Assembly: GCF_024498355.1 (NCBI RefSeq)
Contig: NZ_CP101833.1
Location: 1,345,001-1,409,000 of the forward strand
Source of the DNA: Bacillus pumilus
GTDB lineage: Bacteria; Bacillota; Bacilli; Bacillales; Bacillaceae
Reading direction: 5' to 3'
Length of the DNA: 64,000 bases
Position numbers and translations under genes: made by a program
Shown here: piece after piece, positions 23,572 to 39,314 of the stretch
Layout: every line of letters begins with the position of its first letter
Numbering within the stretch: position 1 is the stretch's first letter
Notes under the pieces: model-generated
Databases searched by the model: none
Told to the model about the DNA's origin: nothing
The model's input: only the letters and a program-made list of their open reading frames with translations

Positions 23572-23599
23572 AGAGACACAGCCAATGGCTTGTGTCTCT
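23572..23599. terminator. Second hairpin at the edge of repeat copy 1
   Basis: AGAGACACAGCC (23572-23583) pairs with 23587-23599 with one bulged T. It directly abuts the dispersed repeat element and has no T-run on the plus strand. Confidence 0.5.
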
Positions 23600-23766
23600 C
23601 AGCGTGAAGACAAACCCTCGCATTCGGTGTCAGTTCTGCGTGCTGGTGCTCACGAATGTCACATTCGCTCCGCGCCAGTACTCGACCTTTCTAGACTTCA
23701 AAGGTTTTCATATCACGCTGAAAAGAAGACAAAGGGCTAAAATAAAGATCATTTTAGCCCTTTGTC
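23599..23766. repeat. Dispersed structured intergenic repeat, copy 1
   Basis: A 168-bp element nearly identical to 39033-39199. The ends CAGCGTGA and TCACGCTG pair (23600-23607 with 23713-23720), AAACC pairs with GGTTT, and a ten-bp internal stem (23640-23649 with 23672-23681) encloses a hairpin CGAATG/CATTCG. It closes with a perfect 16-bp hairpin (23728-23743 with 23751-23766). Differences from copy 2 preserve the internal stem by paired changes. It lies between convergent adeC and rnjA, and its last hairpin can terminate rnjA. Reading frames across it look spurious. Confidence 0.85.
23728..23766 (-). terminator. Terminator of rnjA, formed by the end of repeat copy 1
   Basis: A perfect 16-bp stem, seven-base loop, and T-rich tail (TTCTTTTC) in the reverse direction, four bases after the rnjA stop. 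Confidence 0.75.
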
Positions 23767-34772: not shown

Positions 34773-34787
34773 AGAGATAAGAAATAG

Positions 34788-34801
34788 ATTAAACGCTTTC
34801 A
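34788..34801 (+). promoter_or_regulatory. Candidate cre (CcpA) site inside the SR1 leader
   Basis: On the reverse strand TGAAAGCGTTTAAT matches the cre consensus TGWAARCGYTWNCW at 13 of 14 positions. It begins about ten bases after the predicted start site, a place where CcpA would act as a roadblock. Confidence 0.55.
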
Positions 34802-34830
34802 AACTATAAGTGAAGAAAAGGGGAATGTAC

Positions 34831-34950
34831 GTGGGTACAATTATTTGTCAAGATTGCAATGAAACCATTGATCAATTTGAGAATGAAAAAGTGACAACGC
34901 TATATGGAACGTGTGGTCACTGTCATTGCGGTGATGAAGCCTCTGAATAA
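34831..34950 (+). CDS. sr1P: SR1P, GapA-binding peptide encoded by SR1 (39 aa)
   Basis: In B. subtilis SR1P binds GapA, stabilises the gapA operon mRNA and promotes GapA-RNase J1 interaction. The 39-codon frame begins MGTIICQDCNETID and has Cys pairs CQDC and CGHCHC, suggesting metal binding. GTG 34831 with AGGGGA six bases upstream is the start; the in-frame ATG 34825 is too close to that site. The length equals that of the B. subtilis peptide. Confidence 0.88.
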   Translation: MGTIICQDCNETIDQFENEKVTTLYGTCGHCHCGDEASE

Positions 34951-34958
34951 ATAAAAAA

Positions 34959-34992
34959 GCATGCAGCTCCATTTGGGGCTGCATGTTTCTTT
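34959..34992 (+). terminator. SR1 terminator
   Basis: CATGCAGCTCC pairs with GGGGCTGCATG (11 bp, one G-U), loop of four to five bases, then TTTCTTTTTT. Confidence 0.9.
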
Positions 34993-38196: not shown

Positions 38197-39003
38197 ATGA
38201 CAAACTGGGTGGAAATTGACCGTCTTGCAAAGCTTTGGGTAAAAGAAGCAGGAAGCCGCATTAAAGCGTCCATGCAGGAAGGTCTATCAATTGAAACAAA
38301 ATCAAATCCAAATGATCTTGTCACAAATATCGATAAAGAAACAGAGCGTTTTTTCATTGAAAAGATTCAGTCGACATTTTCAGATCATCATATTTTAGGA
38401 GAAGAGGGACAAGGGGAAGAGGTGACCTCACTGGGTGGGATTGTGTGGATCATTGATCCGATTGATGGCACAATGAACTTTATCCATCAAAAACGCAACT
38501 TTGCCATTTCAATTGGGATATTTGAAAATGGTGTTGGAAAAATCGGACTGATTTATGACGTGATTCATGACGAGCTATACCATGCAGTCAAAGGAAAAGG
38601 CGCCTATATGAACGATACCTTACTCCCGCCTTTAAAAGATGTAGCGATTGAAAAAGCCGTTGTTGGCATAAACCCGACATGGGCGATTGAAAGCCCGCAT
38701 TTTGACGCCAAACCATTTGCCCGTCTCGTACGTGATGTGAGGGGGACACGAACCATAGGGTCAGCTGCGCTTGAGCTCGCTTATATTGCAAGTGGCAGAA
38801 GTGACGCATACGTCACGTTAAGGCTTGCGCCATGGGATTATGCAGCAGGCTGCGTGCTGCTTGATGAAGTAGGGGCTGTTTACTCAAATATTCACGGAGA
38901 CCGGCTTACGTTCCTAGAGAAAAATAGCATTGTTGCCGGAAATCGATCCATTTGTGAAAAGATCTTGCACGATTACATAAAAGGAAGCGAAAATAATAGA
39001 TAA
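38197..39003 (+). CDS. suhB: Inositol-1-monophosphatase family protein (SuhB/YktC)
   Basis: A Mg-dependent phosphatase of 268 residues. Metal-binding residues are present: Glu70 in LGEEG, Asp87 and Asp90 in IDPIDGTMNF, and the C-terminal motif APWDYAAGCVLLDEVGA. The family hydrolyses inositol monophosphates and related phosphates; the in vivo substrate is not known here. The ribosome site AAAGAGG lies about 12 bases from the ATG, somewhat distant. Confidence 0.9.
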   Translation: MTNWVEIDRLAKLWVKEAGSRIKASMQEGLSIETKSNPNDLVTNIDKETERFFIEKIQSTFSDHHILGEEGQGEEVTSLGGIVWIIDPIDGTMNFIHQKRNFAISIGIFENGVGKIGLIYDVIHDELYHAVKGKGAYMNDTLLPPLKDVAIEKAVVGINPTWAIESPHFDAKPFARLVRDVRGTRTIGSAALELAYIASGRSDAYVTLRLAPWDYAAGCVLLDEVGAVYSNIHGDRLTFLEKNSIVAGNRSICEKILHDYIKGSENNR

Positions 39004-39007
39004 GCAC

Positions 39008-39033
39008 CATCACTTCATGAGAATGAAGTGATT
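39008..39033 (+). repeat. 26-bp direct repeat flanking repeat copy 2, left
   Basis: CATCACTTCATGAGAATGAA (continuing GTGATT) is repeated exactly at 39209-39234. Each unit is itself a ten-bp hairpin (39009-39018 with 39023-39032). Here it follows the suhB stop but lacks a T-run. Confidence 0.85.
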
Positions 39034-39199
39034 CAGTGTGTAGACAAACCATCGCATTCGGTGTCAGTCTTGCGCGCCGGTGCTCACGAATGTCAAATTC
39101 GCTCTGCGCCGGTGCTCGTCCTTCCTAGACTGCAAAGGTTTTCTATCACGCTGAAAAGAAGACAAAGGGCTAAAATAAAGATCATTTTAGCCCTTTGTC
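39033..39199. repeat. Dispersed structured intergenic repeat, copy 2
   Basis: A 167-bp element matching 23599-23766. The ten-bp internal stem is 39074-39083 with 39106-39115; the outer arms CAGTGTG and CACGCTG pair with one wobble; the final perfect 16-bp hairpin is 39161-39176 with 39184-39199. Relative to copy 1, two base pairs of the internal stem have changed from T-A to C-G on both sides. It is bracketed by a 26-bp direct repeat, as if inserted within the suhB terminator. Confidence 0.85.
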
Positions 39200-39208
39200 A
39201 ACAATCTG

Positions 39209-39238
39209 CATCACTTCATGAGAATGAAGTGATTTTTT
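39209..39238 (+). terminator. suhB terminator (right copy of the 26-bp repeat)
   Basis: A ten-bp stem ATCACTTCAT/ATGAAGTGAT (39210-39219 with 39224-39233) followed by TTTTTT. It has the T-run that the left copy lacks, so this is probably the native terminator, displaced by the repeat element. Confidence 0.75.
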
Positions 39239-39314
39239 GTGTTTTATGAAACTTTTAGGTAAGCAAATGTCTATACGAACGAGGCCTTAATTTGATGTAA
39301 AGGATTGTGTATCG

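Follow-up and report, generated by a model that had tools for sequence, protein, structure and literature searches.

A probable non-autonomous IS1182-type element of Bacillus pumilus, inserted at transcription terminators with duplication of the terminator hairpin

IS1272 and TnSha1 of Staphylococcus, both in the IS1182 family, target hairpins that are partly terminators and have no sequence consensus (PMC5678879, PMC4923244), and a palindromic target is reported for some IS1182 members (PMC4923244). IS1272 and TnSha1 are reported there to delete the target hairpin wholly or partly and to make no target duplication, whereas the element described below duplicates the entire hairpin; a duplication outcome was drawn by Wan et al. 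as hypothetical pathway b (PMC5678879, PMC4923244). IS1182-like elements, including ISBpu1, have been reported in B. pumilus, with their ends and targets not given in the available extracts of that report (PMC7820076). ISBpu1-type elements are probably of the same kind as type A or type B below, and ISfinder may record hairpin duplication for them. The archaeon Methanosarcina acetivorans carries multi-copy, non-autonomous IS1182 MITEs of 160 and 169 bp with ISMac2 as partner, whose direct repeats, by our reading of the published table, measure 4 and 0 bp and do not comprise a whole hairpin (PMC3852290); a Paracoccus IS1182 element has a 4-bp duplication, again according to a table (PMC3281130). 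The SPRITE repeat of Streptococcus pneumoniae is described as enriched at gene 3' ends and as resembling a Rho-independent terminator (PMC3049150). There the repeat itself is terminator-like, whereas in the present case a foreign insert lies between two copies of a terminator of the host. With B. pumilus IS1182-like elements and archaeal IS1182 MITEs both in print, neither is new in itself. By description, the bcr1 repeat of the Bacillus cereus group is, like the present element, short, structured, intergenic, high-copy and mobile-looking; we know of no terminator duplication at bcr1.

Extent and parts of the element in the window

The window, i.e. the whole stretch of 64,000 nucleotides of B. 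pumilus DNA that was analysed, includes two copies of an intergenic element that the original prediction had described from their shared sequence and fold. Both were found at the places given there. Their alignment of 168 columns has 14 mismatches and a single gap (~91% identity), and the predicted outer arms, AAACC/GGTTT pairing, ten-pair internal stem and final 16-bp hairpin are present in each. The start predicted at 23599 is one base early, as the element opens at the C of CAG in both copies (Table 1). Copy 2 continues beyond the extent first assigned to it, and copy 1 lacks that right end. The complete element is 175 bp long (CAGYGTG...AACAATCTG), and its ends, CAGCGTGTAGACAAACCC and CAGATTGTTGACAAAGGG, agree at 12 of 18 bases and thus form imperfect terminal inverted repeats.

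What had been overlooked is the duplicated terminator hairpin on either side of copy 2. An identical 26-bp sequence, CATCACTTCATGAGAATGAAGTGATT, abuts this copy on both sides, and only the right one of the two hairpins has a T-run and a terminator score. Copy 1 has a terminator hairpin on its left side only, the right side apparently having been lost by deletion between two CTTTGTC repeats. Own copy 1 and the copy at the same locus of genome G013 have the hairpin in common and both stop at ...CTTTGTC. Given that TTTGTCT follows the hairpin in loci L197 and L198, a deletion between the CTTTGTC of the element and the same letters past the terminator would fit. The SR1 sRNA (Rfam RF02376, 189 bits) also lies in the window, at 34778-34992.

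Table 1. Features of the two element copies (window coordinates).
Feature	Position	Strand	Remarks
Left target terminator hairpin at copy 1 (AGAGACACAGCC...TTGTGTCTCT)	23572..23599	+	T-run no longer after hairpin
Element copy 1	23600..23766	+	lacks right terminus (AACAATCTG) and right terminator copy
Right-end palindrome, copy 1	23728..23766	.	minus strand terminator-like
Left target-site duplication, copy 2	39008..39033	+	26 bp, the whole terminator stem-loop
Element copy 2, complete (CAGTGTG...AACAATCTG)	39034..39208	+	175 bp
Internal stem and apical hairpin, copy 2 (GCGCCGGTGC ... GCGCCGGTGC)	39074..39115	+	
Right-end palindrome, copy 2	39161..39199	.	perfect 16-bp stem; minus strand terminator-like
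Right target-site duplication, copy 2	39209..39234	+	T-run still behind; still scored as terminator

Duplicated terminator hairpins and empty sites

The search of the whole genome and its relatives that the original prediction had proposed gave many more than two copies. As judged by the end hairpin with up to 3 mismatches, there are at least 83 places in the 3.74-Mb genome, a lower bound because copies without the hairpin are not counted. Seventy-eight places (77 oriented from one listing and 1 other) were read with their flanks. Both termini were recognised at the set thresholds in 57 of them, and the other 21, copy 1 included, fall below threshold at one or both ends.

An ungapped repeat of the flanks, with at least 15 matches and abutting the element, was found in 45 of the 57 copies (24 of these exact, 20-30 bp) and in 0 of 11203 exchanged-flank controls. 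When gaps were permitted, the flanks repeat each other in 51 of 57 copies, as compared with 4 of 1113 controls; 6 of the 57 own copies failed this test, and 34 of 37 copies of other genomes showed a target duplication. The occurrence of two terminators by chance is excluded by the exchanged-flank controls. A stem of at least 6 pairs is present in 43 of the 45 ungapped duplications, against 177 of 2250 sets of shuffled letters, in keeping with a palindromic target. Among the same 45, a T-rich stretch lies past the right copy in 32 and an A-rich stretch before the left copy in 25, with both in 18. In 39 clean cases, the duplication edges are located at, or within ~2 bases of, the palindrome edge, as pairing is 0.82-0.90 inside at positions 1-6, 0.67-0.69 from the edge to two bases past it, and 0.31 and 0.49 at three and four bases outside, respectively. 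The last base of the left flank is T in 48 and the first base of the right flank A in 46 of the 57 copies. The gene context of the 57 copies, taken from flanking open reading frames by a simple longest-ORF call, is convergent in 33 cases, plus-plus in 13 and minus-minus in 11, and divergent in none, as terminators would give.

Related loci in other strains include many empty sites. For the copy 2 locus, 17 loci including our own were aligned, of which 15 lack the element and show a single hairpin; the remaining two (own and G004) have the element and two hairpins. For the copy 1 locus, the element is present in three of 20 loci (own, L196 of G013 and L212 of G011) and absent from 17; 15 of the latter were displayed with the hairpin, L197 has it too, and L213 is the 17th. 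In the empty sites of relatives at this locus, T's stand directly after the hairpin. Insertion is thus polymorphic at both window loci, as in a MITE, and its boundaries can be read from the aligned letters. Given that the empty sites of relatives have one hairpin, the 20-30 bp hairpin represents the target-site duplication. Replacement of the stem-loop as by IS1272 was not seen, the hairpin at the element being kept twice. The copy 1 insertion is found in the distant G013 (84%), and G042, which is 97% alike there, is empty, hence the insertion is either old, with losses, or has occurred repeatedly in the same terminator. The copy 1 terminator region is occupied too in a second distant relative, at L212 / L161 (G011:C3:567898-568074), and empty in closer relatives.

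Variant copies were also found. A longer subfamily of ~230-234 bp has an extra GC-rich hairpin inside the apical loop of the internal stem (L223, L230, L351-L354). The right-end palindrome has been lost at L340 and at L335:1019-1152, and a duplicated terminator still flanks both; L335 is a B. subtilis plasmid. In the variant set, 13 of 21 loci scripted for duplication gave one and 8 gave none. At L252:2860-3019, two element heads are separated by 139 bp and a copy of the terminator precedes each of them, which is a tandem partial duplication.

IS1182 relatives, spread and orientation

A search with NF033551 (IS1182 transposase) identified four intact elements in the own genome, all of type A. 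Of 44 genus genomes, 13 had matches above the cut-off. Type A is ~1550 bp long, and its ends in the own genome are CAGGCTGTCGAGAAAA and CAGATTGTAGAGAAAC. Hairpins followed by T-runs lie close inside the termini of type A, and the sequences on its two sides are duplicated terminators. Type B (1503-1505 bp; ends CAGCTTGTAGACAAAG / CAGACCGTAGACAAACCC) has a 451-aa product with the Pfam domains DDE_Tnp_1_6 and DUF772, and shows 45-47% amino-acid identity to type A. At the type-B locus L171, NF033551 scores above the cut-off and a 20-29 bp duplication is present; five of six further type-B copies likewise have a 20-29 bp duplication, and L357 has none. The sole type-B trace in the own genome is a degraded fragment with a type-B-like end at 1970117 (L100). 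CAG...CTG ends with flanking direct repeats were detected in 14 of 34 IS loci scanned, counting two weak cases with only 14-15 exact bases (L099 and L166) and L169, at which the best end pair spans a neighbouring small-element copy; no paired ends were found at the other 20, which are partial or degraded. L169 itself (G018:C1:1970878-1972507) has a small element beside a type-A IS1182 element, apparently nested in one terminator. Genome G004 has many element copies, yet gave no IS1182 transposase match.

The left end of the element matches the two type-B ends at 15 and 15 of 18 bases and its right end matches them at 14 and 12, while the corresponding values for the two type-A ends are 12 and 14 (left) and 11 and 13 (right). 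By comparison, among the 1944 CAG-started 18-mers in the window, the element's copies included, 14 or more matches are reached by 2 for the left end and 3 for the right end. No internal sequence is common to the element and type A or B. A simple deletion derivative of either type is therefore ruled out, only the ends being common to the element and type B.

These common ends and targets, together with the empty sites and target duplications, strongly support a MITE, and the mobile palindrome that was one option of the original prediction has thus gained the most. With a probability of about 0.87, the element is a non-autonomous IS1182-type mobile element that inserts at terminators and duplicates the hairpin. 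We infer that it was transposed as follows. An IS1182-family DDE transposase, most likely that of type B, would recognise the CAG..TGT.GACAAA ends and insert the element at an intrinsic-terminator hairpin, at the two feet of its stem, leaving a left hairpin without and a right hairpin with the T-run. The element may have been moved in trans by an autonomous IS1182 element, with which it has ends and targets in common. Since the right hairpin retains its T-run, the host gene should still terminate, and its transcript would end beyond a ~200-nt structured 3' extension.

The same element could also be moved by type-A or any other IS1182 enzyme in the cell, with no special type-B partner. No intact type other than A was detected in the own genome, and type A goes to the same kind of target and bears CAG..TGT.GASAAA ends. 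The right end of type A agrees with the two ends of the element in 14 and 13 of 18 bases. However, the GACAAA of the element ends is that of type B, whereas type-A ends read GAGAAA, except in L167, and the ends of the element fit type B slightly better, by a difference of a few bases. Movement without a special type-B partner is considered rather unlikely.

The element has a match in 38 of the 44 genus genomes, with first-look candidates, which are not confirmed copies, numbering 60-158 in many genomes of 3.3-3.9 Mb and fewer in larger ones. The species among the matches listed are B. pumilus, altitudinis, safensis, zhangzhouensis, australimaris, xiamenensis, stratosphericus, haynesii, swezeyi, paralicheniformis, glycinifermentans, inaquosorum and spizizenii, and further Bacillus species. 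As each insertion regenerates the terminator that it entered, ~80 or more copies may be reachable with little harm. No identical pair was found among 50 own copies compared (best 98.9%), hence there is no sign of recent activity. Carriage as phage or plasmid cargo was rejected, with no phage match and 4 plasmid records. Three records labelled as Stutzerimonas and Klebsiella plasmids (NZ_CP078511.1, NZ_CP078512.1 and CP063894.1) include the element at 81-94% identity, possibly as Bacillus contamination or mislabelled contigs.

Genome G035, which we take to be B. subtilis 168, gave 10 element matches, and the 8 listed are mostly co-oriented with the replication fork, with one at 737371 reversed. 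One of the 190-bp repeats of B. subtilis, near 737 kb, is reportedly the wrong way round. The number of matches and the orientation pattern in G035 point to this repeat, and the element is presumably the same as the '190-bp repeat' of Kunst et al. 1997, matched by genome, number and orientation. We know of no link made there to IS1182 or to terminators.

In the own genome, 56 of 78 copies point with the replication fork (p = 1.5e-4, with coordinate 0 assumed as the origin and a terminus assumed near 1.8 Mb). In ten other genomes, 86 of 119 copies among the matches listed are co-oriented (p = 1.3e-6, with arms split at 48% of the approximate genome size), a p-value made optimistic by common insertions. 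Between co-directional genes the element is plus in 13 cases and minus in 11, and the fork bias is therefore not due to transcription direction. A replication-biased orientation, along with a palindromic, intergenic nature and high copy number, is shared with REP/RAYT-like or IS200/IS605-like palindromes moved as single strands by HUH enzymes. To our knowledge such elements make no target duplication, whereas one accompanies most copies here, and the terminal inverted repeats are common with DDE elements, so that an origin of this kind is highly improbable.

A tentative extension of the IS1182 reading, which we hold as possible but short of even odds, is that IS1182-type elements recognise the shape of DNA and not its sequence. 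They would act on the feet of a terminator hairpin that is extruded at the fork, duplicate the whole stem-loop, and in this way spread through gene ends with termination left intact. Extrusion at the replication fork, as a single strand or cruciform, would give the fork-co-oriented bias.

Conservation of the fold and significance of the element

The four differences between copies 1 and 2 in the internal stem form two compensatory pairs (T-A to C-G), as originally noted. The fold was assessed in an alignment of 90 distinct copies, comprising 50 own (49 complete and copy 1) and 40 from other genomes; the structure was drawn from copy 2, itself a member of the alignment, and so has an advantage over slid versions, and the counts are raised by relatedness among the copies. 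Paired cells amount to 95.5% (91.5 in shuffles), pairs changed on both sides to 12 (8.0 +- 0.9) and double-change cells to 171 (50 +- 9), and the covariation score is 0.122 (0.057), each of these values being reached in 0 of 500 shuffles. Further pair types are not unusually numerous (127/500 shuffles), and slid structures have at most 5 pairs and 30 cells with double changes. Double changes are found in 7 of 16 pairs of the right-end palindrome, where 98.7% of cells are paired, in 4 of 10 pairs of the internal stem, in 1 of 16 of the outer helix, in which one pair fails in 30 of 89 copies, and in 0 of 5 of the apical helix. Uncompensated changes in the internal stem, which had been named as counting against the fold, do occur, with pair 45-78 unpaired in 16 of 89 copies and a T.T mismatch at 48-75 in 76 of 90. 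The signal lies in the right-end palindrome and the internal stem. On the question of which strand's RNA folds, the C-A and the G-T mismatches listed for the pairs give conflicting indications.

The covariation is real, but compensation alone, from which selection on a folded molecule had been deduced, is no proof of selection. Template-switch correction of quasi-palindromes can generate compensatory changes, and the covariation would fit selection on RNA, selection on transposition DNA or such correction alike. That mutation by template switching between the arms, and not selection, produced the changes agrees with the location of the strongest covariation in the short-loop right-end palindrome, an ideal substrate. 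Against this, the internal stem, with arms ~22 bases apart around an apical hairpin, covaries too, and 15 changes from one paired state to another are required for one of its pairs on a tree constructed with that pair left out, a figure that can be inflated by recombination between copies. Mutation as the whole cause is thus rather doubtful.

Retention of the element for an RNA function (3'-UTR RNA, sRNA or bidirectional terminator), with mobility only in the past, would account for a fold and compensation conserved over 90 copies and for the right-end hairpin that scores as a minus-strand terminator. However, no Rfam family was found at gathering score at the element, which leaves the stand-alone small RNA of the original prediction without support; the three sub-threshold matches in 38980-39260 are all far below cut-off (best PyrR, 27.4 vs 54). 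Moreover, at 21 of the 78 places one terminus or both could not be recognised, orthologous sites are mostly empty, and the covariation may stem from selection for mobility or from quasi-palindrome correction. Such a function is accordingly improbable as the reason for retention. What stands of the transcription punctuation unit also proposed is that the element sits inside terminators and bears a minus-strand terminator-like hairpin, and nothing beyond that.

Nothing on the repeat or on whole-terminator duplication was found among the literature matches listed, which covered titles, abstract openings and passages, with most subscription papers and ISfinder outside; this silence is weak evidence of novelty. 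What looks new is that a whole stem-loop is duplicated, that this holds consistently at dozens of sites, and that an abundant Bacillus repeat is tied to it. On this reading, what is probably a long-known and unexplained Bacillus repeat would turn out to be mobile and to have a definite target, and one transposase family would be shown to be able either to delete or to duplicate a whole target hairpin. The many natural insertions, for some of which empty sites are described above, would also be material for testing how a DDE transposase recognises hairpin structure. If the shape reading is true, the stem-loop-duplicating pathway, so far no more than a drawing for IS1272, would be realised in nature by this element, and a structure-selected family of MITEs would be rewiring 3' untranslated regions in the B. 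pumilus and B. subtilis groups.
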